Assembly: GCF_001904725.1 (NCBI RefSeq)
Contig: NZ_MRCE01000057.1
Coordinates: 1 to 37,675, forward strand
Length of the DNA stretch: 37,675 nt
Source of the DNA: Phormidium ambiguum IAM M-71
GTDB taxonomy: Bacteria > Cyanobacteriota > Cyanobacteriia > Cyanobacteriales > Aerosakkonemataceae
Direction of reading: 5' to 3'
The notes beneath the pieces are model-generated. The model saw nothing but the letters and a program-made list of their open reading frames with translations. It was not told the origin of the DNA and searched no databases. Of the stretch, positions 5,042-36,272 are shown one piece after another. The stretch's first letter is position 1, and each line of letters starts with the position of its first letter. A program made the position numbers and the translations under genes.

Positions 5042-5061
5042 TAATGCGCTGACGCGCATTA
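5042..5061 (+). repeat. GCGC-TGAC-GCGC leader hairpin, site 1
   Basis: The longest-stemmed copy of the dispersed element: arms TAATGCGC and GCGCATTA pair over 8 bp around the loop TGAC. It lies about 50 bases upstream of the primase-polymerase start codon, at the head of that operon. Confidence 0.75.
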
Positions 5062-5110
5062 CTCATAAGGGATAAATAAGAAATTTATACTTAAACTCTC
5101 CCTGTTTCAG

Positions 5111-6043
5111 ATGAATGCTAACCCATCAATTTCTCTAAACCTAATTAACACTTTAAAAATTCTCCCTTCTCATTGGCGCATAGTTCCTGTCAATCACAAC
5201 AAACAACCTCTAGGATATTCATGGCAACAACACCCTTTTTCACCGCTTCAAATGCTTGAGTATCTGACTCACAGAGGCTCTGTTGCAGTGCTAGGAAAAG
5301 CTCGCCAACTTTACTATATAACTCCCCCTGGCATAGGACTGTTGTGCGGTCAAACAGAAACAGAATTCTTACTAGCACTTGATATTGATGGTAACAGTGC
5401 AATGGCTTTGGTTGACCAACTATCTCGCGGTCAGGGTTTACCTTCTACTGTCGCCTTTACTTCTGGAAGAGAGGGGAGAGCACAATATTTATTTACACTT
5501 CCTTCTTTTCCAAAGATGTTTAAATCGCGCCGCATTATTACAGCCCCAGGTGAAGCCCTGGAACTTCGTGGCGAGGGACATCAATCAGTTCTCCCTCCAT
5601 CGCCCCATCCCCTGACTGGTCATTACCAATGGATTCATAGACCCGATACCACGAAAGTAGCGCCAGCACCCGATTGGGTCATAGAACTGCTTACTGTACC
5701 CCAAACAGAACCCCAAAAATCAAAAGGATTCAAAACGATTGTCCCAGTTTGCGATCGCAAATCCATAATTCTTACCCCATCAAAAAGAACTTGTGCAACC
5801 AACATTACACTCGCCCAACTTCTGCTAGAGGTAACCCATCCCAACTATGCAGACAACTATCAATCTTGGATTTTTATCGGCATGGCACTCAAATACATCA
5901 GCAATGCTCTCTTACCAGACTGGGATGCGTGGAGTCAACTAAGCAGCAAATACCATCCAGGCGAATGCCAATATAAATGGGAAAGTTTTAGAGGCTTTGG
6001 AATCACAGACCGTACCCTACATTACTACGCTAACCACTCATAA
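5111..6043 (+). CDS. Primase-polymerase (AEP/prim-pol) with PriCT-2-like C-terminus
   Basis: A 310-residue protein. Residues about 15-200 match the bifunctional DNA primase/polymerase N-terminal domain: the acidic motif LALDIDG (around residue 90) supplies the metal-binding DxD, followed by PSTVAFTSGREGRAQYLF and the GEALELRGEGHQSVLPPS strand-turn typical of archaeo-eukaryotic primases of plasmids and phages. Residues about 225-310 resemble the PriCT-2 domain (W.FIGMALKY, DAWSQLSSKYHPGECQYKWESF). The enzyme would make primers or short DNA for replication of the element. No helicase domain is fused, so a helicase must come from elsewhere. It is the best candidate in the window for a replication-start protein. 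The next gene starts 3 bases after its stop. Confidence 0.85.
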   Translation: MNANPSISLNLINTLKILPSHWRIVPVNHNKQPLGYSWQQHPFSPLQMLEYLTHRGSVAVLGKARQLYYITPPGIGLLCGQTETEFLLALDIDGNSAMALVDQLSRGQGLPSTVAFTSGREGRAQYLFTLPSFPKMFKSRRIITAPGEALELRGEGHQSVLPPSPHPLTGHYQWIHRPDTTKVAPAPDWVIELLTVPQTEPQKSKGFKTIVPVCDRKSIILTPSKRTCATNITLAQLLLEVTHPNYADNYQSWIFIGMALKYISNALLPDWDAWSQLSSKYHPGECQYKWESFRGFGITDRTLHYYANHS

Positions 6044-6046
6044 TTC

Positions 6047-6505
6047 ATGACCCAAAATTACCAACCATACTACTTAAATAACGACCAAAATCGCCTGCAT
6101 TTTCTCACTTTAAACTATGAATTACTCGCCGCCGTTAGCTGGCAAGGCTATCTAGAAGAAGGTCGAGGATGCGTAGCAATTGATAATAGTTCCCACAACC
6201 AACTATCATCCAAAAATCCTGACAAACAACCCCAATGGAACTTAGATACTCTACTCGGCTTTTACATAGGGGAAAACGGGAGTAACTTCCAAGATTTATT
6301 AGGAGGAAAATGGCCTGACAGAGAAACAGCACGCCGCGTAGCTCAGTACGACCCTAATTGGAAAGTATTAGTCTTAGTTTGGTTCGGAGAAAACAACGGA
6401 AATTTCTTAATCCAAGGCATTTCAATTCCCCAACTACCACCACCGCTTTGTTACCAACGGCTACTTCCACGTCTAAAAGAATTTATTGTTTCCCCAGGTA
6501 TTTAA
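6047..6505 (+). CDS. Unknown protein next to the primase
   Basis: A 152-residue soluble protein with no motif I recognise. It is rich in aromatic residues and Asn, with strands such as WKVLVLVWFGENNGNFLIQG that suggest a small alpha/beta fold. It starts 3 bases after the primase-polymerase stop and is followed by a leader hairpin and a stem-loop before the next operon, so it is probably a two-gene unit with the primase. A role in replication start is guessed from position only. Confidence 0.75.
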   Translation: MTQNYQPYYLNNDQNRLHFLTLNYELLAAVSWQGYLEEGRGCVAIDNSSHNQLSSKNPDKQPQWNLDTLLGFYIGENGSNFQDLLGGKWPDRETARRVAQYDPNWKVLVLVWFGENNGNFLIQGISIPQLPPPLCYQRLLPRLKEFIVSPGI

Positions 6506-6515
6506 AGAGAGTATA

Positions 6516-6527
6516 GCGCTGACGCGC
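6516..6527 (+). repeat. GCGC-TGAC-GCGC leader hairpin, site 2
   Basis: Core GCGCTGACGCGC flanked by A and T that extend the stem to 5 bp. It lies 59 bases upstream of the start codon of the ubiquitin-like operon's first gene. Confidence 0.7.
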
Positions 6528-6529
6528 TT

Positions 6530-6583
6530 GGCATCAATGGTGTTTCCTAACTTCTTCCATTCTGCCATTGATGCCAGTTTCTC
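6530..6583 (+). terminator. Stem-loop before the ubiquitin-like operon
   Basis: Perfect 11-bp arms, GGCATCAATGG (6530-6540) and CCATTGATGCC (6565-6575), around a 24-base loop, followed by AGTTTCTCATT. It lies between leader hairpin site 2 and the ATG at 6587. It may end the primase transcript or act as an attenuator for the operon that follows. The U-tract is weak. Confidence 0.45.
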
Positions 6584-6586
6584 ATT

Positions 6587-7927
6587 ATGTCTGTTATTCA
6601 TCAAAACGGAAATCAGCTGATTCATATTCCCCCCGATTTATCAAACCTTTTCTCATCCGCTGGAGCCAGTTATTTTCAAGGAAATTCAAACACAGTTACA
6701 AAGAAGGTAATTAAGGTCTTAGCTCCCATAAAGCCCGCATCTTCCACAACACCTTTCGATCAGGAAACTTTAGTAACTAATGGTAATAACTTTGGCATAG
6801 TTAACAAAATCATGCCAGATTCGCCTACTCCTGTCCAAATTTATTGGTGGTCGAACGGGAGTGAGGAAATCGAGCTAAAATTTTGGTATTCCTTAAATGA
6901 TTTAAGGGTGCTAAAAATCGAGCCATTACCTCTATTTGTGACGCAAAAAACCTTTCTGATTATCCCAGCAGGTACTTTAGTACTTACAGAAAATGGGGAA
7001 CTACTCCAATGGACAGAAACTCTCTTCTGGCTAAAAGAAATCAACAATGATGGCTATTACCTACTCAATCAATCCCAAGAGTGGCTTTTCCCCCTGGAAA
7101 ATTTTCCTGGTATTCCCTTTGCTTGTGTGAATGAACTACCGTCAAAAGCAGTTCTATCAGCAACTAAGCGCCTCAATTTCCCTCAACTCAAAATCCTGAT
7201 TTCTCTATGGCTATCTCTCAACTCTCCAGTAGATATTCTCGAACTAATTTATCACAATGGGGAAACAGAAATTGATTTGAAATATCAGTTTATTCGTAGC
7301 GAATATTTGGCAGGAGAAAACTATTTACAAACAGATTTAGAAGCTGCTTGGAAAACAGGCTTTTCGTTACATTTAAAGGAAAGAAAAAGCTCAATTGGAA
7401 TGTTTGGTTTTAAAGCAGACTGGCGCATAGTTCAATGTACTCCCAAAACTGTTACTGTTAGCCGCTCGCACAATAACCATCATTGTACCTACGATTATCA
7501 ATTTGGCACTGTAATAGACTTAGAGCCTCGATCGGACAAACCAGTATCAATCCAGTGGGAACATAATGAAAGCACAGGTAACTACACTTTACCAGAAATT
7601 AGAGCAAATTTTATCAGCCAGATAGTGCTGGTAAAAATATCTGACCAAGTTGGCTATATTCTGAGTGCCGATCGCAAATTCTACCAGGCTATCGTAGGCT
7701 TTGCATCAAAATCTGTAGCACATTCTTGGTGGCGAAGAATCAAAAAAGAACTGGGACATTTAAGCGACCTAAAATCCAACTATCATCCCTCTGTTAAACA
7801 CCTAAAAAATCAGATGAAAGCTAAATATTTTTATTTAGCTCAGTTTCCCCATCAAAAAACCTTGAATGCGCGATTAAGACATCTGCAAATTGTAGCCAAC
7901 TGGGACTTAACTAAACATTCGCATTGA
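6587..7927 (+). CDS. Unknown protein with two possible SH3-like segments
   Basis: A 446-residue protein heading the 6.6-12.7 kb operon. I do not recognise a family. Two stretches share a pattern that could be small beta-barrels: residues about 69-100 (FGIVNKI, PTPVQIYWW) and about 303-340 (FGTVIDLEP, KPVSIQWEHN), each a turn, a strand with P-V-x-I-x-W, then a Leu-rich strand. The C-terminal 80 residues are basic (WWRRIKKEL, HLKNQMKAKYFY) and could bind nucleic acid. No signal peptide or membrane helix is seen. The GIY-YIG nuclease follows 10 bases later, so it is co-transcribed with the PRTRC genes and may be an operon-specific partner. Confidence 0.75.
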   Translation: MSVIHQNGNQLIHIPPDLSNLFSSAGASYFQGNSNTVTKKVIKVLAPIKPASSTTPFDQETLVTNGNNFGIVNKIMPDSPTPVQIYWWSNGSEEIELKFWYSLNDLRVLKIEPLPLFVTQKTFLIIPAGTLVLTENGELLQWTETLFWLKEINNDGYYLLNQSQEWLFPLENFPGIPFACVNELPSKAVLSATKRLNFPQLKILISLWLSLNSPVDILELIYHNGETEIDLKYQFIRSEYLAGENYLQTDLEAAWKTGFSLHLKERKSSIGMFGFKADWRIVQCTPKTVTVSRSHNNHHCTYDYQFGTVIDLEPRSDKPVSIQWEHNESTGNYTLPEIRANFISQIVLVKISDQVGYILSADRKFYQAIVGFASKSVAHSWWRRIKKELGHLSDLKSNYHPSVKHLKNQMKAKYFYLAQFPHQKTLNARLRHLQIVANWDLTKHSH

Positions 7928-7937
7928 TAGAGCAAAA

Positions 7938-8555
7938 ATGAATGTAAATCCTCCTCTACATTCGTGGTACGCTAGTATCATTACCAACAATTCATCTGAA
8001 GTATACTGCGACCATCTAGCTGTATGTCTCTTGCTAGAATTAATCCCAAATGTGACTCAAGAACAAAGGTTTATTACTCCAATACTTACCAGTATAAACG
8101 CCTTGGCTACAGTAGTCAAAGCGCCAGATATTGAGGTAAAACACTCCCTTGAACTTTTGCAGGAATTAAGCTTCATCCAGATTAACTATCCCCATGAACC
8201 AGAACTGTTACTAGCTGGTTTAATTCAAATCGCATTAAATCGATCCAGAATTTCTCAATTATCTGAAACCACAGCAAAAAATGAGCGTAGTGGATATTTA
8301 TATATAGTGCGTTCAGGATTGAGCAATCAATACAAAATTGGTCGCACTAATAACTTCCAAAAACGCTTAAAAACTTTACAGACATCCTGTACCGTTCAAT
8401 TGACTGTTGTAAAAACTTTCTTCTCCCTTGATGCAGTATCTTTAGAGAAAACAGCACATGATAAATTTGCACATTTCCGACAAAAAGGGGAATGGTTTGA
8501 ATTGAATTCCTCACAATTAACCCAACTATTATCCTGGCTGGAACGTTGCCATTAA
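7938..8555 (+). CDS. GIY-YIG nuclease, T5orf172/MUG113-like
   Basis: A 205-residue protein. Residues about 118-200 form a GIY-YIG domain of the T5orf172/MUG113 class: SGYLYIVRSG (the GIY strand), YKIGRTNNFQKRL (the YIG strand plus catalytic Arg) and later LEKTAHDKFAHFRQKGEWFEL, which carries the conserved Glu-His helix and the GEWF finish of this class. Residues 1-115 are a helical N-terminal region with no known match that might bind DNA or a partner. Such nucleases nick or cut DNA in mobile elements and phages. Its place just before the ubiquitin-like genes suggests either regulation by that system or action on plasmid DNA; this is inference. Confidence 0.8.
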   Translation: MNVNPPLHSWYASIITNNSSEVYCDHLAVCLLLELIPNVTQEQRFITPILTSINALATVVKAPDIEVKHSLELLQELSFIQINYPHEPELLLAGLIQIALNRSRISQLSETTAKNERSGYLYIVRSGLSNQYKIGRTNNFQKRLKTLQTSCTVQLTVVKTFFSLDAVSLEKTAHDKFAHFRQKGEWFELNSSQLTQLLSWLERCH

Positions 8556-8559
8556 AACT

Positions 8560-8946
8560 ATGCCAAAAGTTTTCCTCAAAGCCGAAAGCAAAAGCTTTCT
8601 TAAGCAATGCGAACATTTATTTCCTAATGGTTTTCCTGTTACAGCAGCTACTCCTGAACGGGAAATGGACTGGTATTGGAAAACTAGTTTATTGGGGAAA
8701 TTTAAGTTTACCTTAATTAACTTCATTCGTCACCAAAAATGGATTTGGCTTAATCCAAATGCTGACCCTCCGTTCTTTATTTTGGACAGTTATGCTCTCT
8801 TATTTCCGCAAAATCAAGCACTGTTAAAGCTACTCAAAACCCATTACTGGAACGGGATAATTCCTAAGTGGATTGACCCAACTAACCCATTGAAAAACAG
8901 CATCAAAATTCTGGCTAGCGAAGTAGAAAGCCTAATAGCAGATTGA
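8560..8946 (+). CDS. Unknown small protein in the PRTRC-like operon
   Basis: A 128-residue protein with no recognised family. It is rich in Trp, Phe, Lys and Pro (MDWYWKTSLLGKFKF, KWIWLNPNADPPFF), which suggests a compact mixed fold; no Cys cluster, membrane segment or signal peptide is seen. It starts 4 bases after the nuclease stop and ends 22 bases before the E-like gene, so it is translated from the same message. Function cannot be given. Confidence 0.7.
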   Translation: MPKVFLKAESKSFLKQCEHLFPNGFPVTAATPEREMDWYWKTSLLGKFKFTLINFIRHQKWIWLNPNADPPFFILDSYALLFPQNQALLKLLKTHYWNGIIPKWIDPTNPLKNSIKILASEVESLIAD

Positions 8947-8968
8947 ACACTAATAAGAATCTACAAAA

Positions 8969-9340
8969 ATGTCAGACCTGGAAACACAGTACAATTTTGA
9001 CCAAAATACCATCGTTATCCACATTCAGTTGTTACCCAAAACTGATGCAAATCAACCTCGAACTGCGGTAGTAGGCGTAGGTATCAAAAATTCTCCACCT
9101 ATCATCACTAATACTAATGTAGAACAGTTAGAGTTACCTGCTCAAATTAATTCAATGCTGTCTCAGTTATCAGAAGAACTTCCGCAAAGGAAAGCGGCGG
9201 CATTAGAGTTAATGGAGAAACAACAAACTGAGGAATTACAACAGAATTATCAACAGCGAAAAGTGGCACCACCGCCAACAACTTCATCCAGTCAAACCAA
9301 TACTAATACTAGTCAAAAGCACCAACTAACTTTGTTTTAA
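8969..9340 (+). CDS. PRTRC system protein E-like, with C-terminal QLTLF
   Basis: A 123-residue protein. Residues about 14-80 follow the pattern of PRTRC protein E: a strand of hydrophobic residues ending in LLPK, then a second strand (RTAVVGVGIKNSPP), then LELPAQINSMLSQL and a basic helix (ELPQRKAAALELMEKQQ). The last 30 residues are a Ser/Thr/Gln/Pro-rich linker ending exactly in QLTLF (residues 119-123), which fits the bacterial beta-clamp binding consensus QL[S/D]LF. The element encodes its own clamp at 22.6 kb. E may thus tie the ubiquitin-like cassette to the replication fork; this is inference from the motif. It is followed 3 bases later by the ubiquitin-like gene. Confidence 0.65.
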   Translation: MSDLETQYNFDQNTIVIHIQLLPKTDANQPRTAVVGVGIKNSPPIITNTNVEQLELPAQINSMLSQLSEELPQRKAAALELMEKQQTEELQQNYQQRKVAPPPTTSSSQTNTNTSQKHQLTLF

Positions 9341-9343
9341 ACT

Positions 9344-9775
9344 ATGCCACTCATCATTCTTGAAGGTCAAAGAATTTCCTTGATTCCCGAACAATGTGCC
9401 ACAGATGAAAGCATCGTCAATACCTTATTACCTTTCTATCCAGATGTGGCGAATGCAACTATTTCTAGAAAAGTTGTAGACGGTGAAGAACATATCGAAA
9501 TCGTCAAAAAGGTGGGAACTAAAGGGAACTTTGCTCTTATCAAATCCCTGCAAACTGCACCAGAGTCAATTAATCCTGCACTTTCTCTTAGTTATCAACT
9601 CAAAGAGCTGGAAATTCAAGGTAAATTAAGTTTAGAAACTCTCTTGAGTATCTCGGAAGAAATTGAAGTAGCAATAGCACAAGGAGAACAAGCAAGCAAA
9701 GCTACCAACAGTGCTCTAGCAAATTTAATCGCCTCTCCCCCCATCCCTTCTAAACATCCAATTCCTAACTTATAA
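9344..9775 (+). CDS. PRTRC system protein C-like ubiquitin-fold protein with extension
   Basis: A 143-residue protein. Residues 1-61 match PRTRC protein C, a ubiquitin-like modifier candidate: strand ILEGQRISL, a helix with IVNTLLPFYPDVANATI, then DGEEHIEIVKKVGTKG. Family members usually end near the GTKG motif (here 58-61). This one continues for about 82 residues: a helical segment (LSYQLKELEIQGKLSLETLLSISEEIEVAI) and a Pro-rich tail. That layout would suit a precursor cut by the JAMM peptidase encoded two genes downstream, or a fusion to a helical adaptor. Neither is shown. The next gene starts 1 base after the stop, so translation is tightly coupled. Confidence 0.75.
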   Translation: MPLIILEGQRISLIPEQCATDESIVNTLLPFYPDVANATISRKVVDGEEHIEIVKKVGTKGNFALIKSLQTAPESINPALSLSYQLKELEIQGKLSLETLLSISEEIEVAIAQGEQASKATNSALANLIASPPIPSKHPIPNL

Positions 9776-9776
9776 A

Positions 9777-10523
9777 ATGTCAGTTACCACTGCTGCCATT
9801 ACACATTTGCGCTCTTGTCAATTCCCTGTTTCTGTTGCACAGGGACTTGATTATTTGACTCAATTAAAGGAAAGTGTTGTTTTACTTTCTCTTTACAAAG
9901 CAAACTTTCCTTGTGAATGGGAAAAATCAATCGCACCTTTCTTTCCCCTGGCTTCTAATTCTCCCTATTCTCCCAGAGAAATCCAATTTTTAGAATTAGT
10001 GGATTCCCAACTATTTCCACTTGGCTTAGACTGTTTTGAATGGGATGAAAGATTGGATTTTATCCCATTTTGGTCTCACGAACTGGATTTTTATCAAAGG
10101 GATATCGAAGAATTTGAGCCAAGTACACAATTTCTCATTTGTTTGTATGATTCAACTTATTTACAAGGTGATTGGTATACTCATTTTAGCATTAAGCCGG
10201 GTCGAGTAGTTACCGCCGACCAAGTTGATTTCGACCAACTCAAGCAGCTATGTAACCAAGCTTCCGAACCAATATGTTATCTCTATGAAGCTATCAGTAT
10301 TATCGACCACAGTACAGGTAGTATTTGGCTTGATGAAACTGGGGAATCTGCTTTCTATTTTGAGTGGTCGCAATCCAATCTTTCTATCTTAGCTGCTGAT
10401 TGGTTAATCGCACAAAACTTTAACCAAAAAGCTGAACTACTTTGTTTGTGGTTGCAAGAAAGTAACCAGAATAAAATTTCCCTGATCCAACTTTGGAATG
10501 ATGCTAAAAAAAGTAAATTATGA
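9777..10523 (+). CDS. PRTRC system protein F-like
   Basis: A 248-residue acidic protein. Its position between C and B matches the order in PRTRC cassettes. The C-terminal part fits what I know of protein F: a segment SIWLDETGESAFYFEW followed by a helix LAADWLIAQNFNQKAELLCLWLQ. The N-terminal 100 residues hold many aromatic and acidic residues, with no metal or nucleotide motif. Its biochemical role in PRTRC systems is unknown. It overlaps the E2-like gene by 4 bases (ATGA). The assignment is weaker than for C, B, A and ThiF and rests on position plus a loose C-terminal pattern. Confidence 0.55.
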   Translation: MSVTTAAITHLRSCQFPVSVAQGLDYLTQLKESVVLLSLYKANFPCEWEKSIAPFFPLASNSPYSPREIQFLELVDSQLFPLGLDCFEWDERLDFIPFWSHELDFYQRDIEEFEPSTQFLICLYDSTYLQGDWYTHFSIKPGRVVTADQVDFDQLKQLCNQASEPICYLYEAISIIDHSTGSIWLDETGESAFYFEWSQSNLSILAADWLIAQNFNQKAELLCLWLQESNQNKISLIQLWNDAKKSKL

Positions 10524-11245
10524 CTTTAGCTAACTTAGAAAGTCGATTGTTAATAAATGCGATCGCACCCAAAGACATCCTCGCTTCTCTCTACATCTTT
10601 GAAGGCCAATATTTACTAAAATACCAAGAAAATGACCAGATTTTTAGTAAATTTATTTCCTCAGAAGCAGTGCGAAATGCGTTCTGTCAACTACCAGTTG
10701 ATTCTGGGTTTTTACCACCTGGTATTGTTAGGTGGGGAAGCACTACCAAGGGAACTTTCATTGTCAAATTTATTCCGGCAACAAGCAACAATCAATTTAC
10801 CTTTGTTGAAGATAGTCAAAACCAAATTCTTTCTTTACCATTGCCTGGATTAGTGTTAATAGGTATAGGTCGCCAATATTTCTTTTGGGCAGTAAAAACT
10901 AAGCAATTTGACCCAAATGCTAAAGTATTCCACGCTCCCTTACCTAATATTAACTCTTGGGGAGCTATTTGTTTTGGTAACAACTTTGTCCCTGATGCTA
11001 GCACTGAGACTATTGAATTTGTTTGTCAACTATTTGGTAGCAGTCCCTTCAATGGTGATAGCGTTACTGGCAAATCAAAAGCATTTCCATCAGATATTAG
11101 AAAGCAACTACATTACCTACACAAACATCAAAAACGGAGTTATCCATTGCGGGATTTAGTTGATTACCCAAGTCGCTATAAAACCATTGGAGAACTTATC
11201 GATTTCATGGTGAAACAAAGTTATGAATCAACCACCTTTAATTAA
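10520..11245 (+). CDS. PRTRC system protein B, E2-like fold
   Basis: A 241-residue protein that fits PRTRC protein B, the divergent E2 family (Prok-E2 type D). Landmarks in order: FLPPGIVRWG (residues about 64-73), the hydrophobic SLPLPGLVLIGIG, then VFHAPLPNINSWGAICFGNN (residues about 136-155), where H138-A-P resembles the HPN turn of E2 enzymes and C151 sits where a thioester cysteine could be. The C-terminal third has SPFNGDSVTGK and SRYKTIGELIDF. By family knowledge it would carry an activated ubiquitin-like protein between the E1 and a target; catalysis by C151 is inference. It overlaps both neighbours (4 and 23 bases). Confidence 0.8.
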   Translation: MTLANLESRLLINAIAPKDILASLYIFEGQYLLKYQENDQIFSKFISSEAVRNAFCQLPVDSGFLPPGIVRWGSTTKGTFIVKFIPATSNNQFTFVEDSQNQILSLPLPGLVLIGIGRQYFFWAVKTKQFDPNAKVFHAPLPNINSWGAICFGNNFVPDASTETIEFVCQLFGSSPFNGDSVTGKSKAFPSDIRKQLHYLHKHQKRSYPLRDLVDYPSRYKTIGELIDFMVKQSYESTTFN

Positions 11246-12663: not shown

Positions 12664-12687
12664 TTTATCTACGTTGTACAGAAGAGG

Positions 12688-12741
12688 ATTTTTTAGAGAG
12701 CGCTGATGCGCTTGTGCGGATGAAAAGAACTTCTAAAAAAT
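12688..12741 (+). promoter_or_regulatory. Nested inverted repeats in the radical SAM leader
   Basis: Outer arms ATTTTTTAGA (12688-12697) and TCTAAAAAAT (12732-12741) pair perfectly over 10 bp and enclose the GCGC-TGAT-GCGC hairpin (12700-12711). The right outer arm ends at the base just before the ATG at 12742, so folding would hide the ribosome binding region. It looks like an RNA switch or an operator pair; no regulator is known. Confidence 0.5.
12700..12711 (+). repeat. GCGC-TGAT-GCGC leader hairpin, site 3
   Basis: Loop variant TGAT with stem AGCGC/GCGCT. It lies 30 bases upstream of the radical SAM start codon and is nested inside a longer inverted repeat. Confidence 0.7.
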
Positions 12742-13919: not shown

Positions 13920-13927
13920 GTAAGACT

Positions 13928-13966: not shown

Positions 13967-13969
13967 GTG

Positions 13970-13987
13970 TTGGTGCTGACGCACCAA
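13970..13987 (+). repeat. Leader hairpin with changed stem, site 4
   Basis: TTGGTGC-TGAC-GCACCAA: the loop TGAC is kept while both arms differ from the GCGC form and still pair over 7 bp. This compensatory change supports a role for the fold itself. It lies 26 bases upstream of the Ycf35-like start codon and just after a terminator. Confidence 0.7.
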
Positions 13988-14013
13988 ATTTTTAGTAGTG
14001 TTAATTTAATCAA

Positions 14014-17089: not shown

Positions 17090-17101
17090 GCGCTGACGCG
17101 C
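17090..17101 (+). repeat. GCGC-TGAC-GCGC leader hairpin, site 5
   Basis: Core GCGCTGACGCGC with a 4-bp stem, placed 13 bases after the T-run of the preceding terminator and only 7 bases before the ATG at 17109. The real start of the gene may be the in-frame ATG at 17139. Confidence 0.7.
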
Positions 17102-18757: not shown

Positions 18758-18769
18758 GCGCTGACGCGC
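18758..18769 (+). repeat. GCGC-TGAC-GCGC leader hairpin, site 6
   Basis: Core GCGCTGACGCGC, 32 bases upstream of the ATG at 18802 and just after the preceding terminator. Confidence 0.7.
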
Positions 18770-20712: not shown

Positions 20713-20937
20713 ATGCGCGTGTTTAAACAAGTTAGCTACGTACAAATATCACAAGGATGGCAAACCTATGTGTTTCCGGTTAGAGGCGGTTTTGTGCGTT
20801 ACAAATTGCTGCCAACACTCAGGGATTTTGAACAAGCAAAAGAAAACTGTATCAGACAAGGATGGAAAATGACTAATGCTACTTCTTTAGTGAAGAAGAT
20901 GAACTCTTCTTCTACCCAAATAGAGTCAATTTTTTGA
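20713..20937 (+). CDS. Unknown small protein after the dpdA-like gene
   Basis: A 74-residue protein when started at ATG 20713; a GTG at 20704 would add three residues. It has a two-strand start (MRVFKQVSYVQISQGWQTYVFPVRGG) and a helix (FEQAKENCIRQGWKM). No family recognised. It is 17 bases downstream of the dpdA-like gene, so it may be a partner; nothing in the sequence tells its role. Confidence 0.6.
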   Translation: MRVFKQVSYVQISQGWQTYVFPVRGGFVRYKLLPTLRDFEQAKENCIRQGWKMTNATSLVKKMNSSSTQIESIF

Positions 20938-20969
20938 ATGAAAGCATTTTACCTTTTGAATTGTTAAAG

Positions 20970-20981
20970 GCGCTGACGCGC
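20970..20981 (+). repeat. GCGC-TGAC-GCGC leader hairpin, site 7
   Basis: Core GCGCTGACGCGC, 38 bases upstream of the ATG at 21020. Confidence 0.7.
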
Positions 20982-21019
20982 TATGAATTGTGATGTATTG
21001 CTATGAGAAATTTACCATT

Positions 21020-21570: not shown

Positions 21571-21642
21571 CCTTATCCCCCTGTCCCCTTATCCCCCTGT
21601 CCCCTTGTCTCCTAATCCCTAGTCCCCAGTCCCCAGTCCCCA
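21571..21642 (+). repeat. Short tandem repeats of 7-16 bases
   Basis: Two copies of a CCTTATCCCCCTGTCC unit run into AGTCCCC heptamers (AGTCCCCAGTCCCCAGTCCCC). Such heptameric short tandem repeats are common between genes in filamentous cyanobacteria. They abut leader hairpin site 8. Confidence 0.7.
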
Positions 21643-21654
21643 GCGCTGACGCGC
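21643..21654 (+). repeat. GCGC-TGAC-GCGC leader hairpin, site 8
   Basis: Core GCGCTGACGCGC, directly after the heptamer repeats and 32 bases upstream of the GTG at 21687. Confidence 0.7.
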
Positions 21655-24096: not shown

Positions 24097-24945
24097 TTTT
24101 TTAGGGTATGTTTTCCAGCAAATATACCCTAAAAAATTATGTGCGATAAGCTAAAACTATTGCTCCATAAGGTATGTAGCAGATTTTTCCAGGCTGTCAG
24201 GAGTTTTTAGGGTACGTTTTGGGCAAAACATACCCTAAATGGTTAAACGCGATGTACTCAAACCATTGCTGTATAAGGTATATAGTGGGTTTTCGTTGAC
24301 TGCCTCAAGCTTTTTAGGGTACAACAATCGGATTGTGTACCCTAAATTTAGGGTATATTTTCTGCTAAATATACCCTAAAAGCTTAGATGCGATGCGCTC
24401 AAACCATTGTTGTATAGAGTGTATAGCAGGTTTTCACTGACTGCTATAAGTTTTTTAGGGTACAAAACTGGATTGTGTACCATAAATTTAGGGTATATTT
24501 TTCCCAAAACATACCCTAAAAGCTCAAGCGCGATGGGTTCAAACCCTTGTCCTATAAGGTTTACAGCAGCTTTTCGCCGATTGCCATAAGTTTTTTAGGG
24601 TACAAAAACTGGATTATGTACCCTAAATTTAGGGTATATTTACCACAAAATATACCCTAAAAACTCAGGCGCGATGCGCTCAAACCATCGCTGTATAAGG
24701 TATACATCAAGTTTTCGCTGATTGTCACAAGTTTTTTAGGGTACAAAAACTGGATTGTGTACCCTAAATTTAGGGTATGTTTTGCCCAAAACATACCCTA
24801 AAAGCTCAGGTGCGATGCGCTCAAACCATTGTCATAAAAGGTATACAGCAGGTTTTCGTTGATTGCCATAAGTTTTTTAGGGTACAAAAACTGGATTATG
24901 TACCCTAAATTTAGGGTATGTTTTGGGCAAAATATACCCTAAAAA
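24097..24945. repeat. Palindrome array of about 141-bp units between dnaN and dnaX
   Basis: This 850-bp gene-free stretch holds five full units of about 141 bp (starts near 24310, 24451, 24591, 24732, 24873) and two shorter leading ones. A full unit has palindrome A (TTTAGGGTAC...GTACCCTAAA), then at once palindrome B (TTTAGGGTAT...ATACCCTAAA), then a linker with GCGATGCGCTCAAACCATTG and TATAAGGTATACAGCAGGTTTTCG. There are 5 A and 7 B palindromes, so about 24 TAGGGTA half-sites. One A copy has a changed right half (GTACCATAAA). Loops differ more than arms. It resembles an iteron-type origin, a partition site or a replication control region; no initiator that binds it is known. Confidence 0.85.
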
Positions 24946-24948
24946 GCT

Positions 24949-28894: not shown

Positions 28895-28994
28895 TTGGTG
28901 AGTGGTAAAAGCGATCGGATTAATTTGGTGAATCTCGATCGCCCCCTCATTTTGGGAGTTTATTTCTGTGCGATCGCGTCCCTGTGTTTCCCAA

Positions 28995-29728: not shown

Positions 29729-29984
29729 AGTTTAAAGTAGTACAAAAAATTGTGCGGTAAGCGACCATAAAATACTATAAGCAGCAAGTAGCAGAAGATA
29801 ATAAGTTATATACAAAAAGGGCGCTGACGCAGCCAAAAGGAATGATGAATTCCTTAGTTGCTCATGTACCCTAAAAGTTTTTCTCTTAACCAAAAGCAGA
29901 CTGACTCTTTGAAGAAATATGGATTTTGCATTGCTACTGTAGCTGGCATAAAATCCATCAGATTTAATAATTTTATCTCAATGG
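29729..29984. other. Intergenic stretch before the IS element
   Basis: No gene is seen. It holds a degenerate leader hairpin (29821-29832), a short inverted repeat AAGGAAT/ATTCCTT (about 29837-29854), and an orphan GTACCCTAAAAG (29866-29877) identical to a half-site of the 24-kb array. The upstream part of a gene cut by the IS could lie here, but no frame is convincing. Confidence 0.5.
29821..29832 (+). repeat. Degenerate leader hairpin, site 9
   Basis: GCGCTGACGCAG preceded by GG: left half and loop kept, right arm changed. It is the only site not directly before a gene start, perhaps because the IS element at 29.98 kb split the leader from its gene. Confidence 0.5.
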
Positions 29985-31347: not shown

Positions 31348-31348
31348 C

Positions 31349-31777
31349 ATGCTCGATTGGGATACACCACATCGAGGCGAAGTTTACCAAAATCTCGCAC
31401 AACATTGCCACGAAAACCCACAAGAACTCTGGGCTATTTACGATACATTTGCTGGCGTTCATGCTTTCCGGTTAAATTGTACTGAGCCACCTACTTCTGC
31501 CCATAGCATTGCTTTAGCATATAAGCTGGATGCAGACATTCGCTATGTGGAACTTTGCATAGCTAGAAATCTTTGGTCAGCACGCATTGCTCCTAAACCT
31601 CATAGAAGCAGAGATTTCATCTGTTTCAAAGGATTTCTTGGCAGTGGAATTGCTTTACCAAAAGCTCAATGGCTCTTGCAAATTCACCATAATTTGTTAA
31701 TTAAGCATAGACTAACTACAGCTACTAAAAATAGTCCCTGTTCCTCACTACTTCGACAAATTCAATTAGTCGCTTGA
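31349..31777 (+). CDS. Unknown protein, probably 5'-truncated by the IS
   Basis: A 142-residue reading frame that begins at the right edge of the IS. It has WDTPHRGEVYQNLAQHC, LWAIYDTFAGVHAFRLNC, DADIRYVELCIARNLWSARI and ALPKAQWLLQIHHNLLIKH, which look like genuine coding sequence with no recognised family. The frame is open only 5 codons upstream of the ATG, within the IS end, so the original start may have been lost. The IS end offers GGGGGAG as a new ribosome binding site. A strong terminator follows. Confidence 0.6.
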   Translation: MLDWDTPHRGEVYQNLAQHCHENPQELWAIYDTFAGVHAFRLNCTEPPTSAHSIALAYKLDADIRYVELCIARNLWSARIAPKPHRSRDFICFKGFLGSGIALPKAQWLLQIHHNLLIKHRLTTATKNSPCSSLLRQIQLVA

Positions 31778-31789
31778 GTTGTCACTATT

Positions 31790-31818
31790 AGACCCGGAAT
31801 AACCGGGTCTTTTTTTTA
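31790..31818 (+). terminator. Strong Rho-independent terminator
   Basis: AGACCCGG (31790-31797) pairs with CCGGGTCT (31803-31810) around AATAA, followed by a run of T. Confidence 0.9.
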
Positions 31819-31886
31819 CTAAATGCTGGCAGTCGTTGAATATAATAACCCATTCACTTTCCCTAAATTTTGGTTGATTTATGGCG

Positions 31887-31898
31887 GCGCTGACGCGC
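31887..31898 (+). repeat. GCGC-TGAC-GCGC leader hairpin, site 10
   Basis: Core GCGCTGACGCGC with outer G and C that lengthen the stem to 5 bp; 28 bases upstream of the ATG at 31927. Confidence 0.7.
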
Positions 31899-31926
31899 CA
31901 AATATTAGCAACATAAGGCATAAATA

Positions 31927-32565
31927 ATGTCAAATCCGCATCCCTCACTATTTGAATTAGCTCTCCAAATCCAACCAGTTTCCGATTCTTTTAAAATCAT
32001 GACGAATCTGCTGCTGGAAAATGGAGCTAGCAAAGAAGTGATTGCTGCTATGTTAGAAATAGCTCAATTTTCTATCCATCACGTTCGCTGGTTAGCTGGG
32101 CCAGTAATTGTGCATCAATCTCTCTGGATGGAAACGTTACCCAAATGGCTGATAGAAGCCATTTATTTAGATAGATTGGAGCGAATTTTCCAAGAACATG
32201 AAATAGGTGAAATTGGTATGTTAGCAACACCAGCAGAAGTCCTAGCTTGTATGTATCCCGCCACGATGGAAGCACCTTTACATTCTGATTGGGTAAACGT
32301 TTATTTATGGGTGGGGAATGAAGTTTTCTCTAAACATCAGCGACTTCAAGAAACTTCTTTATGGCAACTGCTTGGAGAAGATAGACCAGTTAAATTTGAG
32401 TCGATTAAATCGGATTTTGAACAGTTAGCAAAAGATATCCGACGAAAGGTGGTAGAAGCTGCCAAACAACGAGGATGGGGTAAGAAACCTCTTCCCTCAA
32501 CCACAGCCTCTCAAAAATCACCTCCTGACCCAGAAAATCGACCACTACAATATACGCTTTTTTAA
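31927..32565 (+). CDS. Unknown protein ending in a clamp-binding-type QYTLF
   Basis: A 212-residue protein that is mainly helical by pattern (LFELALQIQPVSDSFKIM, ASKEVIAAMLEIAQFSI, WLIEAIYLDRLERIFQEH), with a basic helix (LAKDIRRKVVEAAKQRGWGKKP) and a Pro/Ser-rich linker. The last five residues, QYTLF, fit the pentapeptide by which proteins dock on the beta clamp. It heads the operon with HolA and HolB. That context supports a role with the clamp or clamp loader; it may occupy the place of a small replisome subunit. No family is recognised. Confidence 0.7.
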   Translation: MSNPHPSLFELALQIQPVSDSFKIMTNLLLENGASKEVIAAMLEIAQFSIHHVRWLAGPVIVHQSLWMETLPKWLIEAIYLDRLERIFQEHEIGEIGMLATPAEVLACMYPATMEAPLHSDWVNVYLWVGNEVFSKHQRLQETSLWQLLGEDRPVKFESIKSDFEQLAKDIRRKVVEAAKQRGWGKKPLPSTTASQKSPPDPENRPLQYTLF

Positions 32566-32571
32566 TTGAGA

Positions 32572-33027
32572 ATGAACCATAATTCAATTCTACATTTGAC
32601 TAATTGGGAAATTAATAAATTAGCCAAAGAGCCTGGTTTCTTAATTCGTCCTGTCGAACCACAACCTCTGGGAATATCCAAAGATTCTCCTTTGGATAGA
32701 AAGTGGTTAGCCAAAAATTTTCAGGTCAATGAGATTCCATTACTCCTGCCAACTATTGGCGACCTTCCAATAGAATTTCCTTGGGGAAGAGTGGGAGAAA
32801 TCTTACCAATTTCTGACAACTCATTACAGCTAGTTATTGCCAGCATAGATGTAGAAAAGCTCAATCAAATATCGCCAGAACTTGTTCAATTGACTGGTAT
32901 TAACTTCCAGAACAGTACAATTCCATATTGGTCTATGCTGCACATGGAAATCCAAAAAACTTATCCAGAAATTACCCCTGATTCTTGGGTCTGGATTATC
33001 AAAACTGTACCAAAACCATTTAACTGA
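32572..33027 (+). CDS. Unknown protein next to holA
   Basis: A 151-residue protein when started at ATG 32572 (a TTG at 32566 is in frame but less likely). It has LHLTNWEINKLAKEPGFLIRPVEPQPLG, GDLPIEFPWGRVGEILPI and SWVWIIKTVP; the start and the wording of the strands recall PUA- or ASCH-like beta-barrels that bind RNA or modified bases, but this is only an impression. It lies 6 bases after the QYTLF gene and 8 before holA, so it is in the same operon. Confidence 0.65.
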   Translation: MNHNSILHLTNWEINKLAKEPGFLIRPVEPQPLGISKDSPLDRKWLAKNFQVNEIPLLLPTIGDLPIEFPWGRVGEILPISDNSLQLVIASIDVEKLNQISPELVQLTGINFQNSTIPYWSMLHMEIQKTYPEITPDSWVWIIKTVPKPFN

Positions 33028-33035
33028 GAATTCCC

Positions 33036-33998
33036 ATGCCTACTTACATCTATTGGGGTGATGACGACTATTTAATCGAACGTAATATTAACAAATTACG
33101 CGACCTAGTTGTTCACCCCAACTGGCAAGTATTCAATTTCTCCAGTTATCAGTTTGGAGCCAACAATTTTAACGCTGCTTTCAACGAGCTTCTCACTCCT
33201 CCAATTGGTTCTGGTGGACGCTTAGTGCTTCTATCTAACTGTGGAGAATGGAAAGCCATTGATGATACTAAAATTGAGCAATTGGAACGTACTTTGCTCA
33301 ATCTACCAGATACTAATCATCTATTGCTAACCAGCCAATCAAAGTTAGATAATCGATTGAAGTTTACTAAGCTCATTTCCCGATATGCTCAAGTCAAAGA
33401 GTTCTCCCTCATCCCAGCTTGGGATACCCAAAAGCTAACTAACAGAGTTAAAGAGGCTGCCTATTTCTTGTCTCTGTCGATATCTAATGAAGCAGTTCAC
33501 CTCTTAGCAGCTTCTGTGGGTAATAACACTAGGTTGTTGTTTAATGAATTGGAGAAACTAAGCTTAGTATCGGTAAGCTCTGAGATTGATGTGTCTCATG
33601 TCCAAAGTTTGGTTAGTATTACTACCGCAAATACTCTCCAACTTGCTCAAGCTATTTGTGTGAAAGATACCACTAAAGCTACCCAAGTGTTGACTAATCT
33701 TTTCTCACAAAATGAGCCTGTTCTCAAGATTGTTGCTACTCTCACTACTTTGTTTCGTACTTGGTTGATTGTCAAAGCTATGGTGGATGAAGGGGTGTTA
33801 GATAATCATATAATCGCCACAGCCGCAGGAGTGGGAAATCCCAACCGTGTCTACTACTTGAAACAAGAGGTTAGCACAATTTCCATTAACAGATTCAAGC
33901 AACTTCTGTATCAATTGTTAGAGTTGGAAATACTAGCAAAACTTGGTGGTACTGAATCACTCTTCACTAGCCACATTATTTCTCTTTGTACTCTATGA
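33036..33998 (+). CDS. holA: DNA polymerase III delta subunit
   Basis: A 320-residue protein with YIYWGDDDYLIERNINKLRD at the start, the usual delta opening, then GGRLVLLSNCGEW, LLLTSQSKLDNRLKFTKLI, LAASVGNNTRLLFNELEKL and, in the last third, PVLKIVATLTTLFRTWL. Length is close to the family norm (about 320-340). Delta opens the clamp ring during loading. It overlaps holB by 4 bases (ATGA), so both are made together and pair with DnaX at 25.3 kb. Confidence 0.88.
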   Translation: MPTYIYWGDDDYLIERNINKLRDLVVHPNWQVFNFSSYQFGANNFNAAFNELLTPPIGSGGRLVLLSNCGEWKAIDDTKIEQLERTLLNLPDTNHLLLTSQSKLDNRLKFTKLISRYAQVKEFSLIPAWDTQKLTNRVKEAAYFLSLSISNEAVHLLAASVGNNTRLLFNELEKLSLVSVSSEIDVSHVQSLVSITTANTLQLAQAICVKDTTKATQVLTNLFSQNEPVLKIVATLTTLFRTWLIVKAMVDEGVLDNHIIATAAGVGNPNRVYYLKQEVSTISINRFKQLLYQLLELEILAKLGGTESLFTSHIISLCTL

Positions 33999-35032
33999 GC
34001 ATTTTACAATTCTTTCCCGACCCAGGCGACCCTACAGACACTACTGGGATTGCAGAGAAAGCTACTTTTGAACCATTTTTTGATGAGATTGTTGGTCAAT
34101 CAACAGCTATTAAGCTGCTGCAAAGAGCCATAGCTACTAATAGAATACCCAATGCTTTTCTCTTTGCAGGCCCTGATGGTGTGGGTAAACGCCTTACTGC
34201 TAAGTGTTTTATTCAAGCACTGTTTTGTCACGTTCTTCCGGTTACAAATTTGTCTGATTATATCCAACAGATTCAACAAAATAACCACCCAGATGTTCTC
34301 TGGATAGAACCAACTTTTGTGCATTCTGGGGAATTTATCAACGCCTCAACTGCTGTATCTCAAGAACTTACATTCAAGCAGCCACCAGTTATTCGCATCT
34401 CTCAAGTTAGAGAGATTGCTAATTTCTTGGCTCATCCTCCTCTATTAGCATCACGACAAATTGTGGTAATAGAGGGTGTACATTTGATGGCATCGGCGGC
34501 GGCTCATGCGTTGTTGAAGACTTTGGAGGAACCGGGAACTGCTACACTGATTTTGATTGCTCCCCATTCTGAGTCTCTTCTACCTACCATCCGTTCCCGT
34601 TGTTCTCTAATTCCTTTTAGAAGTTTGGGTCAACACCAGATGTGTCAGGTATTAGAGAATGCTGGATTTTCTCAGATTTTGACATATCCTGAGATTATTG
34701 AGATGGCGCAGGGATGTCCGGGAAATGCAATCGCGGCTTGGAATCATTTAACTCTCATTGAACAGATTGACCCAACATTACTATCAGTTTTCTTTTCCAA
34801 TCAAAGTACTTCCCAGCTTCTCCAAGTTGCTAAAAATATTAGCCAAAAGCTTGACATTTCTAGCCAATTATGGTTAGTAGATTATTGGCAATATCAACTT
34901 GGAAAAATTCACAGAAACAGGAGAATTACAGAGTTTTTCTCTAGGATTAAAGATTCGCTTCACCTGGCACAATCTCAATTGGTTTTTGAAGTTTGTTTGT
35001 TGAAATTAGCAGAAATTATCAGCACGAGTTAA
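33995..35032 (+). CDS. holB: DNA polymerase III delta' subunit
   Basis: A 345-residue protein read from the ATG that overlaps the holA stop. It has FDEIVGQSTAIKLLQRAI, a P-loop AGPDGVGKRLTAKCF, VIRISQVREIANFLAHPP, IVVIEGVHLMASAAAHALLKTLEEPG and LPTIRSRCSLIPF. The Walker A (GPDGVGKR) keeps Lys but has Arg for Thr/Ser, and Walker B lacks the usual Asp-Glu, as expected for a non-hydrolysing delta'. With DnaX and HolA it forms a full three-gene clamp loader on this element. Confidence 0.9.
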   Translation: MSILQFFPDPGDPTDTTGIAEKATFEPFFDEIVGQSTAIKLLQRAIATNRIPNAFLFAGPDGVGKRLTAKCFIQALFCHVLPVTNLSDYIQQIQQNNHPDVLWIEPTFVHSGEFINASTAVSQELTFKQPPVIRISQVREIANFLAHPPLLASRQIVVIEGVHLMASAAAHALLKTLEEPGTATLILIAPHSESLLPTIRSRCSLIPFRSLGQHQMCQVLENAGFSQILTYPEIIEMAQGCPGNAIAAWNHLTLIEQIDPTLLSVFFSNQSTSQLLQVAKNISQKLDISSQLWLVDYWQYQLGKIHRNRRITEFFSRIKDSLHLAQSQLVFEVCLLKLAEIISTS

Positions 35033-35046
35033 TCAATAATAGGTGT

Positions 35047-35058
35047 TCGCTGACGCGC
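35047..35058 (+). repeat. Leader hairpin, site 11
   Basis: TCGCTGACGCGC, with an outer TAGG/CCTA pairing interrupted by extra bases on the left. It lies 15 bases after the holB stop and 42 bases before the ATG at 35101. Confidence 0.6.
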
Positions 35059-35100
35059 CTACTGTTTTAAGTTATTCCTTTTTTGAATTTGGAATTGTTT

Positions 35101-35757
35101 ATGAGTCGTTCTACTCTTTTGACTACCCATAAAGTGCCAATCAGTAATTTCAATTATTTGGCATCTCAATTAAGACAAGCTGGAGCTAAGTTTCGCTCCT
35201 CTATCCAAAAGCAAGAAGCAACTATTGTCTTCTCCCAGTTGCCTTTTAATGCTTTGTCAATCCTCGAATCTTCTGTACCAAATCAGCAGTTTGAACCAAC
35301 TGATTTGGATGTAGAATCATCTATGGAATCTAGTCATTCTACACTCACTGGTTCAAACAAGGTTGCACAATTTATTCCTAAATCTCCATCAAACATGGAA
35401 ACATCAGCGCATCAGGAGAAAGTTCCCCAAGAAGCAGAGGAAGCACTCGGACAAATTCAACCAATAGAGGTGGATAAAACCACTGGTTTTGAAGATTTAA
35501 TCGAAGGAAGCTCGATGGATACTCTAGTGGAGACCACTACAGATGAATCTGTTGAATCTGGAGAAATTGTTGAGCCAATCGGGGAATTTTCTGGTGATGA
35601 TGGCTCAAAGATAGCTACAGAACAACAGCTTTTGGAATTGAGTAAAACTAAGCTCAAGAAGTTAGCCAACAAATACGACATTGCAGGTCGAACTAAATTG
35701 TCGCATCACGAGTTAGCTGCGGCTTTAGCTAATAAAGTTCCTCTCGATAATTTGTAA
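35101..35757 (+). CDS. Protein with a SAP/Rho-N-like C-terminal domain
   Basis: A 218-residue protein (a TTG at 35083 is in frame; ATG 35101 is preferred). Residues about 1-65 are a small folded region (PISNFNYLASQLRQAGAKFRSS, EATIVFSQLPFN). The middle, about 70-170, is acidic, Ser/Thr/Glu-rich and probably disordered. The last 40 residues (LLELSKTKLKKLANKYDI, GRTKLSHHELAAALA) fit the helix-turn-helix of SAP or Rho N-terminal domains, which bind nucleic acid. It may be a DNA-binding accessory or nucleoid-type factor of the replicon. Not a known replication protein. Confidence 0.7.
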   Translation: MSRSTLLTTHKVPISNFNYLASQLRQAGAKFRSSIQKQEATIVFSQLPFNALSILESSVPNQQFEPTDLDVESSMESSHSTLTGSNKVAQFIPKSPSNMETSAHQEKVPQEAEEALGQIQPIEVDKTTGFEDLIEGSSMDTLVETTTDESVESGEIVEPIGEFSGDDGSKIATEQQLLELSKTKLKKLANKYDIAGRTKLSHHELAAALANKVPLDNL

Positions 35758-35844
35758 TTGTTGGTCAATTTTAGGGGATTTACCTAACTTCTGGGTATGG
35801 GTTTGCTGACACATTTTAAAGCTAGCAAAATTTGGAGGCTTATT

Positions 35845-36135
35845 ATGGCTATTTCTCTTGGTTCTCTAGGAATTAGGATTAACCGGAAAAAACTTTTGTC
35901 TCAAGTTGTTGAATTAGCAGAAAATCGCCGCTATTGGCAAGCTGTTGCTGATGGAACTACTGAAGCTCACGATGCTAAGTTGGTGAGGACTCAACTTTAT
36001 CAAACTTTGGTTGAAGCTGATAATCAGGAGCTTTTAGAATTGGCTTGTCAACTACTTACTCTCAATGAAGTTGGTCGGCGAGCTAATGATACTTTTGAAC
36101 GGATTAAAGAACATAAATCTAAGCTGGCTGCTTAA
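35845..36135 (+). CDS. Unknown small protein, 96 residues
   Basis: Started at ATG 35845 because GGAGG lies 7 bases before it; the ATG at 35797 would add 16 residues and has no such site. The protein is mostly helical (RKKLLSQVVELAENRRYW, AKLVRTQLYQTLVEADNQELLELACQLL, GRRANDTFERIKEH). No family is recognised. It ends right at a terminator that separates it from ssb. Confidence 0.65.
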   Translation: MAISLGSLGIRINRKKLLSQVVELAENRRYWQAVADGTTEAHDAKLVRTQLYQTLVEADNQELLELACQLLTLNEVGRRANDTFERIKEHKSKLAA

Positions 36136-36180
36136 GATAAATTACCATCAATTCTCTTGGGATTGGTGGTAATTTATCTT
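36134..36180 (+). terminator. Stem-loop after the 96-residue gene
   Basis: Perfect 14-bp arms AAGATAAATTACCA (36134-36147) and TGGTAATTTATCTT (36167-36180); the left arm overlaps the stop codon. T-run weak. Confidence 0.65.
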
Positions 36181-36199
36181 GACGCTTTCATTTAATAGT

Positions 36200-36211
36200 G
36201 CGCTGTCACGC
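36200..36211 (+). repeat. Leader hairpin variant, site 12
   Basis: GCGCTGTCACGC followed by TGTTAT, an imperfect copy of site 13 located 61 bases before it. The loop is TGTC instead of TGAC. Confidence 0.55.
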
Positions 36212-36260
36212 TGTTATTTAAGTGTCATGTTCAAGGTATTGAGCGGAGTCCTTGAATATA

Positions 36261-36272
36261 GCGCTGTCGCGC
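36261..36272 (+). repeat. Leader hairpin variant, site 13
   Basis: AGCGC-TGTC-GCGCT with a 5-bp stem, followed by GTTATAA; 35 bases upstream of the ssb start codon. Sites 12 and 13 share flanks (AATA before, TGTTAT after), so they look duplicated. Confidence 0.65.

Follow-up and report, generated by a model that had tools for sequence, protein, structure and literature searches.

Hairpins with a C(TNNC)G loop at a preferred distance upstream of maintenance genes in cyanobacterial PRTRC-type plasmids

A contig of 37,675 nt from Phormidium ambiguum IAM M-71 (C57 among the 90 contigs of a 7.4-Mb genome; the whole of this stretch is called the window below) carries a plasmid maintenance block in which short hairpins recur a few tens of bases 5' of genes. 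These hairpins were first noticed for their GCGC arms and TGAC loops, but they belong to a broader class, found in cyanobacterial PRTRC-type plasmids, that is set by a C(TNNC)G loop and by its spacing from the start codon and not by GCGC arms or TGAC. By definition, the class has a constant base at either end of the loop and a constant closing pair, while the middle of the loop is free except for a rare C in third place and the stem may take any sequence provided that it pairs. Judged from sequence comparison, the class suggests a control signal not described before, recognized through its shape. There is an even chance, in our estimate, that it acts as an element of the leader RNA, and a hairpin promoter formed on the template strand is the most serious of the alternatives considered here.

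A class set by loop and spacing

Across 52 loci, C(TNNC)G accounted for 50 of the 76 tetraloop hairpins situated 26-45 nt 5' of open reading frames (ORFs), with four in the next class, and in an enlarged plasmid set it made up 63 of 134 such hairpins at 24-60 nt, where 2.3 would be expected from gene interiors; the class was picked only after the open loop counts had been seen. The scans required at least two G/C in the four-base arm, and ORF starts are those of mechanically called longest ORFs, corrected only where stated. Counts of loop classes, hexamer pairing and one-strand use are unthinned, so that related plasmids count more than once, while similar sites were removed from the lists of unique sites (78 to 67 and 145 to 135). 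The antisense tallies of the open loop counts read the same palindromes from the other side and cannot serve as a control; the antisense hexamer count given next can.

With pairing not used as a criterion, the sense zone at 26-45 nt held 96 CTNNCG hexamers, and 50 of them are enclosed by three further Watson-Crick pairs; sliding the partner by one or two positions leaves none of the 96 paired. None of the 16 hexamers in the antisense zone is paired, and in gene interiors the count is 85 of 4293. Control hexamers in the same zone paired in 1 of 66 cases for GCNNTC, 2 of 20 for CANNCG, 2 of 35 for CTNNAG and 0 of 15 for GTNNCC. Pairing is kept despite sequence variation, as in structured leaders: 56 unique sites display 19 different 5' arms, with the two loop-proximal pairs being G-C in about 52 of them. 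The loops at these sites are TGAC (15), TAAC (14), TATC (9), TAGC (6), TGTC (4), TCAC (3), TTTC (2), TTAC (2) and TGGC (1), and none of the 56 has C in the third place of the loop, although TACC and TGCC do occur in the strand-survey contigs. Loops of three or five bases gave nothing comparable in the zone, with C(TNC)G being 1 of 60 triloop hairpins. Six-base C(N4)G loops closed by G-C numbered 27 of 97 and look like members of this class whose closing pair was counted into the loop.

Spacing is the second defining property. Among 67 unique sites, 55 stand 26-45 nt 5' of the start codon (some starts corrected), with a mode of 31 nt and, for the sites inside that interval, a mean of 34 nt and a standard deviation of 4. 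Other loops show no distance peak at 26-45 nt, and the C(TNNC)G class has a few sites nearer or farther. A purine-rich box of six bases lies 7-12 nt 3' of the stem (65-78% A/G, against 49-61% just around it). As a displaced Shine-Dalgarno sequence this box was rejected, since Shine-Dalgarno 4-mers rise there but the reversed 4-mers rise too. A TANNNT (-10-like) box is enriched neither in the 67 unique nor in 55 start-aligned sites, apart from a peak due to the start codon's own T. In a box scan of lineage 1 the top z values fell at +25 (3.75) and +28 (3.15), near start codons, with the 'ssb2' rows L140 and L145 out of register. Sigma-70 boxes at a fixed distance up- or downstream were sought and rejected; hairpin-free heads also have none, so that this test has little power.

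The class extends to other plasmids of the same hosts, where the arms can differ, as in GCC-TGAC-GGC about 30 nt 5' of the likely ssb start in two of them. Seven non-cyanobacterial PRTRC loci gave 0 of 17 zone hairpins of this class, and 50 IMG/VR loci gave 5 of 106, which is background. Roughly 40-kb stretches of the PRTRC plasmids of Trichormus (L177) and Gloeothece (L058) contain no paired site in the zone. Three further cyanobacterial plasmid stretches (L208-L210), chosen as outside the 40 of 300 ThiF matches listed and not proven to be PRTRC-free, have none at 24-60 nt and one hairpin at 72 nt.

Use of one strand

Within nine plasmid contigs, some of them partial, sites at most 110 nt from an ORF are divided 52 to 1 between the two strands (the exception is in G002:C33), and sites at any distance 71 to 2. 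Nine of 24 sequences have at least three hairpin heads, and in these all 48 hairpin heads fall on the majority strand while 39 of the 177 gene heads with enough room in these spans are on the other strand; the majority strand was chosen afterwards and the counts alone were used. The direction is shared with the relaxase. In all 18 cyanobacterial plasmid records of PLSDB that were common to the matches listed for ThiF (40 of 300) and relaxase (60 of 354), the PRTRC ThiF gene has the strand of the MOBP relaxase gene, in some of them at a distance of more than 100 kb; many of these records are related and not independent. By annotation, the two genes also share a strand in L179 and L181, the relaxase and the sites are both on + in G001:C214, and the single zone site outside the core of pANACY.02 is likewise on the relaxase strand.

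The hairpins of the window

The thirteen sites of the first-pass annotation are as follows (all on the + strand; distances are to the start named):

5042..5061, +: hairpin TAATGCGC-TGAC-GCGCATTA, 53 nt 5' of the PrimPol-like ORF 5111
6515..6528, +: hairpin AGCGC-TGAC-GCGCT, 59 nt 5' of ORF 6587, which opens the PRTRC run
12700..12711, +: hairpin GCGC-TGAT-GCGC (loop variant TGAT), 30 nt 5' of the radical-SAM ORF 12742
13970..13987, +: hairpin TTGGTGC-TGAC-GCACCAA, 29 nt (counted from the inner four pairs) 5' of the DUF1257 ORF 14014
17090..17101, +: hairpin GCGC-TGAC-GCGC, 37 nt 5' of the conserved start 17139
18758..18769, +: hairpin GCGC-TGAC-GCGC, 32 nt 5' of ORF 18802
20969..20982, +: hairpin GGCGC-TGAC-GCGCT, 38 nt 5' of the small 65-aa ORF 21020
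21643..21654, +: hairpin GCGC-TGAC-GCGC, 32 nt 5' of the DUF5895 ORF 21687
29821..29833, +: imperfect copy GCGC-TGAC-GCAGC, no clear adjoining gene, near the TnpB-family ORF 30126
31886..31899, +: hairpin GGCGC-TGAC-GCGCC, 28 nt 5' of ORF 31927 (run with holA and holB)
35047..35058, +: imperfect hairpin TCGC-TGAC-GCGC, 42 nt 5' of the likely start 35101
36200..36211, +: second copy upstream of ssb, GCGC-TGTC-ACGC (closing mismatch), 96 nt 5' of the start
36258..36275, +: hairpin ATAGCGC-TGTC-GCGCTGT, 35 nt 5' of ssb 36308

The hairpin observation in the window is real and confirmed. All thirteen sites are present: with at most two mismatches to GCGCTGACGCGC, the window gives 13 matches, every one on +, where 100 dinucleotide shuffles averaged 0.39 and reached 2 at most. 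Whatever the loop sequence, the + strand has nine tetraloop stems of 4 bp made entirely of G/C, and all nine loops are TGAC (7), TGAT (1) or TGTC (1). A stem around one of these three loops had been claimed for every site, and this holds at most of them, with pairing imperfect at 35047 (outer T-C), at 29821 (a bulge) and at 36200 (closing C-A). Twelve sites had been placed 7-100 bases before the first gene of a unit; with likely starts, 11 of the 13 stand at 28-59 nt, the 20970 site before its 65-aa ORF included, and the 36200 copy at 96 nt. The distance of 7 bases came from a false start at 17090, where the G005 orthologue has the upstream ATG in another frame, the conserved start is at about 17139 and the distance is therefore 37 nt. 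The common orientation of sites and genes stands as described, but it is weak evidence within the window because 43 of the 45 called ORFs are also on +. Many unit heads do carry the hairpin, as had been proposed, but ORFs 14741, 19775, 22638 and 36806 are without it, each following a terminator-like hairpin, a feature only slightly more frequent in the window than in shuffles. The 13970 hairpin lies directly 3' of such a terminator-like hairpin.

Two of these sites have other repeats or structures beside them. A second, longer hairpin (TTGGCATCAATGG...CCATTGATGCCA) occupies 6528-6576, between the 6516 site and the start of ORF 6587, and it is kept in L036 (from 13266), where an A to G change still pairs as G-U. 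Short GTCCCC-type repeats fill about 60 nt (about 21583-21642) directly 5' of the 21643 hairpin and are absent at its L038 counterpart.

Conservation and paired changes in relatives

Related plasmids carry the hairpin before the same genes. This is the case in G005:C7 (52-93% identity, genes matched in order) and in the more distant G002, G006 and G008 (about 43-82% identity), and it extends to the distant UBA11370 plasmid, with a ThiF 58% identical, where the hairpin is kept 5' of the orthologue of ORF 5111. The 5046 hairpin also precedes that orthologue in L036 (at 179 nt), L040, L044, L050 and L137. Hairpins occupy the matching place for 6516 in L036, L040 and L044, for 17090 in L037, L045 and L049, for 18758 in L037 and L045, for 20970 in L038 and for 31887 in L039 and L054, and the imperfect form at 35047 is the same in L039. 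The 36261 hairpin stands before the ssb orthologue in L039 (G005), with a TGTC loop in both. In G002 (L041), two TGTC copies (GTGC-TGTC-GCAC and GCGC-TGTC-GCGC) lie 3' of the homologue of 35083, a place where no ssb was matched. For the 12700 hairpin, no counterpart with a TGAC or TGTC loop, the only loops sought, was found after ThiF in L036.

The compensatory change claimed at 13970 is borne out by the comparison, as the arms are GTGC/GCAC in the window and GCGC/GCGC in three orthologues (L037, L040 and L044). Orthologous sites and genuine paired changes such as this one agree with the view of the first-pass annotation that the hairpin is a directional, paired element shared by the gene heads of one replicon and its relatives. 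Compared with L038, the 21643 site shows no visible likeness in its upstream flank, while the hairpin and the downstream bases agree.

The sequence TCGCTGACGCGC is found once just 3' of ThiF, with nearly the same flank, in six Anabaena-type plasmid loci (L056, L057, which is the L067 plasmid, L064, L065, L068 and L070). The L056 copy (20910-20921) is separated by about 120 nt from the gene annotated next, and a longer hairpin follows it.

Rarity in the host genome

A host-wide short repeat or mobile palindrome, the caveat attached to the original observation, would place the same motif at random positions and in both orientations throughout the genome, and it is refuted for this genome; we leave it next to no probability. 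The perfect 12-mer GCGCTGACGCGC has nine copies in the 7.4-Mb genome, of which seven are in the window, all on +, and a reversed-pattern control gave none. It is true that 45 of 120 relatives carry the perfect 12-mer somewhere, on either strand, but just two of the nine copies in the genome itself fall outside the window, and a dispersed repeat would not account for the position at gene heads or the spacing. The many chromosomal copies on both strands that characterize REP- or HIP1-type repeats were not seen. A sample of 400 kb from elsewhere in the genome (L155-L174, long contigs whose chromosomal status is not proven) was at background: it held no stem with a TGAC loop even at three or more G/C pairs, and two CTNNCG hexamers in the zone, one of them paired. 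Its only three TNNC hairpins are one repeated sequence, all on contig C20, which carries a relaxase further along and may be mobile. Taken together, the scan of replicon and host gave what had been proposed for a shared element, namely enrichment at the gene heads of the replicon and its relatives, with paired changes.

The same 400 kb contained 63 all-G/C stems with a GCAA loop, a separate repeat family. Copies of GCGCTGACGCGC also occur in a different, conserved context (GGCGCTGACGCGCCGCCGCGAG...) at L047:3852 and L055:657 (G000 and G001), and these are apparently unrelated to the plasmid element.

Genes of the window

The gene content of the window is that of a plasmid maintenance block, and named cyanobacterial plasmids carry related blocks. 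It includes a PRTRC-type run (protein B, protein A and a ThiF-like protein, with matches that fall short of the curated cut-offs), an AAA ATPase, proteins of the Gp157 and DUF5895 families, and replication genes for the beta, gamma/tau, delta and delta' subunits of DNA polymerase III, a family-A polymerase with exonuclease and an SSB. The Anabaena homologue of ORF 5111 is annotated as a primase/polymerase. Between dnaN and ORF 24949 is a gap of 890 bases in which the palindrome CCCTAAATTTAGGG occurs five times (one copy with one mismatch) at 24340-24916, with a spacing of 140-141 bases, where 0.18 matches would be expected in the window; the array looks like that of an origin or partition site.

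Leader RNA, template-strand promoter or other signal

The simplest reading of the class is a single-strand structure, because the arms differ within one plasmid, and an RNA function is favoured because the distance to the start codon is tight and no promoter box stands at a fixed distance. On this leader-RNA reading, to which the even chance given above applies, a hairpin of the form N(3-8)C-UNNC-GN(3-8) on the coding strand, about 31 nt 5' of where translation of the first gene begins in many units (replication, PRTRC and ssb genes of cyanobacterial PRTRC-type plasmids among them), would be transcribed and would work within the leader. A single factor, of the plasmid or the host, may recognize the shape of loop and helix just beyond the ribosome footprint and set the translation or stability of these mRNAs jointly, and the plasmid-maintenance genes would then form one regulon addressed through shape and not through stem sequence. 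Downstream flanks that are better kept than upstream ones at 18758, 21643 and 36261, as judged by eye, count for a leader RNA.

Several observations weigh against it. The spacing is not strict, with 12 of 62 CTNNCG hexamers at 46-110 nt upstream also being paired, and just 2 of 16 zone hairpins located inside an upstream ORF belong to the class, where a signal for translation alone would be expected at genes within tight operons as well. Shine-Dalgarno use differs little between hairpin heads (9 of 60) and other heads (121 of 567), figures that also led us to reject the hairpin as a Shine-Dalgarno replacement. Flank conservation covers both sides at 20970 and 31887 and neither side at 5046. 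We know of no familiar RNA tetraloop family that matches UNNC with free middle bases; UNAC loops are mimics of GNRA, and 22 of the 56 unique sites are not UNAC. Wobble pairs of the G-T and A-C kinds are no different from those in shuffles and give no sign of which strand folds. A leader RNA also leaves the use of one strand and the co-orientation with the relaxase unexplained. Calculated folding energies did not discriminate between the strands, the template-strand form being slightly more stable, by 0.4 kcal/mol as DNA (5 of 5 pairs) and 0.9 kcal/mol as RNA (3 of 3).

A tentative but substantial alternative is that the functional hairpin is DNA, with the template strand reading C(GNNA)G and folding on single-stranded or supercoiled plasmid DNA to mark the start of transcription, in the manner of a phage N4 promoter or of a conjugative plasmid's entry (T-strand) promoter. 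A GNNA loop with at least two G-C pairs makes an extraordinarily stable DNA mini-hairpin (PMC4686876), and the two loop-proximal pairs of the plasmid element are nearly always G-C. The promoters of the N4 virion RNA polymerase are likewise described (PMC4496689) as template-strand hairpins that need a sheared G:A loop pair and whose non-conserved stem bases are free if paired. The strand bias, the co-oriented ThiF and relaxase genes, the lack of TANNNT enrichment near the hairpin and the GTCCCC-type repeat 5' of 21643 also favour such a promoter. However, the three-base GNA loop of the N4 form is not enriched, as the single C(TNC)G triloop indicates, which weighs against a pure DNA-stability reading, and a promoter would not be expected to keep so tightly to one distance from the start codon. 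The lack of a sigma-70 signal is uninformative since hairpin-free heads lack it as well, and the phage-type RNA polymerase family PF00940 was matched in none of 6 genomes, though the controls gave no match either. Frpo (PMC11541004) has -10 and -35 boxes within a structure that mimics double-stranded DNA and drives expression from the transferred strand, whereas the stems considered here are 4-9 bp. Together with the one-strand use and the relaxase co-orientation, the likeness to these DNA hairpins suggests expression from the transferred strand, as for Frpo. The relaxase gene enters last, and given that co-orientation the transferred strand would be the template. It is conceivable, though we regard this more specific proposal as still less probable, that cyanobacterial conjugative plasmids use ultra-stable template-strand C-GNNA-G mini-hairpins as transcription start signals for their replication genes, so that the entering strand would express primase, SSB and clamp loader before the second strand is made. 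If true, a hairpin promoter may explain why replication blocks run in the direction of the relaxase.

Two other explanations fare worse. RSF1010-type ssi sites are known single-strand priming sites, and the hairpins could be ssi-like sites for a plasmid primase, dispersed on one strand; the strand bias and the primase/polymerase gene within the block would fit, but priming gives no reason for a peak 28-42 nt before start codons, and we hold this improbable. A double-strand DNA operator with dyad symmetry, bound by a plasmid regulator, would suit the nearly uniform GCGC arms of the window and of G120. This directional operator, one of the two functions first suggested, is disfavoured because arm sequences vary within one plasmid (C351 has CCCC, TGCC, GTGC, TCAC, TAGC and more), and an asymmetric loop keeps one orientation relative to the gene; it appears very unlikely.

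With the leader-RNA reading preferred, either a new leader-RNA regulon or a hairpin promoter would be at stake. In both cases the class may represent a precise start-of-gene signal for large cyanobacterial plasmids that encode a clamp, clamp loader, polymerase, primase-like protein and SSB of their own. Ordinary motif searches would miss a signal with conserved loop ends, pairing and spacing but a free stem sequence. The exact 12-mer GCGCTGACGCGC was not found in the literature searched, and no such element appeared among the matches listed for PRTRC in cyanobacterial plasmids, cyanobacterial stem-loops and plasmid hairpins.

Comparison with known systems

With cis-acting leader RNA hairpins of the Rfam type, the plasmid element shares a set distance to the start codon and a covarying stem. 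Unlike them, it is defined by loop ends and spacing and is common to unrelated genes of one replicon, and Rfam 15 gave no match in the window on either strand at E values up to 1. Abundant TAACTGA direct repeats, a short dispersed intergenic motif, are reportedly present in Beggiatoaceae with a proposed post-transcriptional role; the plasmid element consists of covarying hairpins and not of direct repeats. Its template-strand sequence fits the motif of the GNNA mini-hairpins, which in the parts of the literature consulted on them are known from oligonucleotide studies and not as a repeated genomic signal. Like the Frpo and ssi promoters, it lies upstream of ssb and establishment genes, with secondary structure and with genes that would be on the transferred strand, but its stems are short, no -10 or -35 boxes were seen and its sites spread across tens of kilobases. 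It differs from the N4 promoters in its four-base instead of three-base loop, its many copies and its plasmid location, and no matching polymerase was found in the PF00940 search, whose control was uninformative. Like them, it is a small hairpin near genes, used in one direction, with a template loop that begins with G and ends with A, closed by C-G on a free paired stem. Ultimately, a template-strand start signal of this kind, if true, would be an N4-like hairpin-promoter system outside phages.

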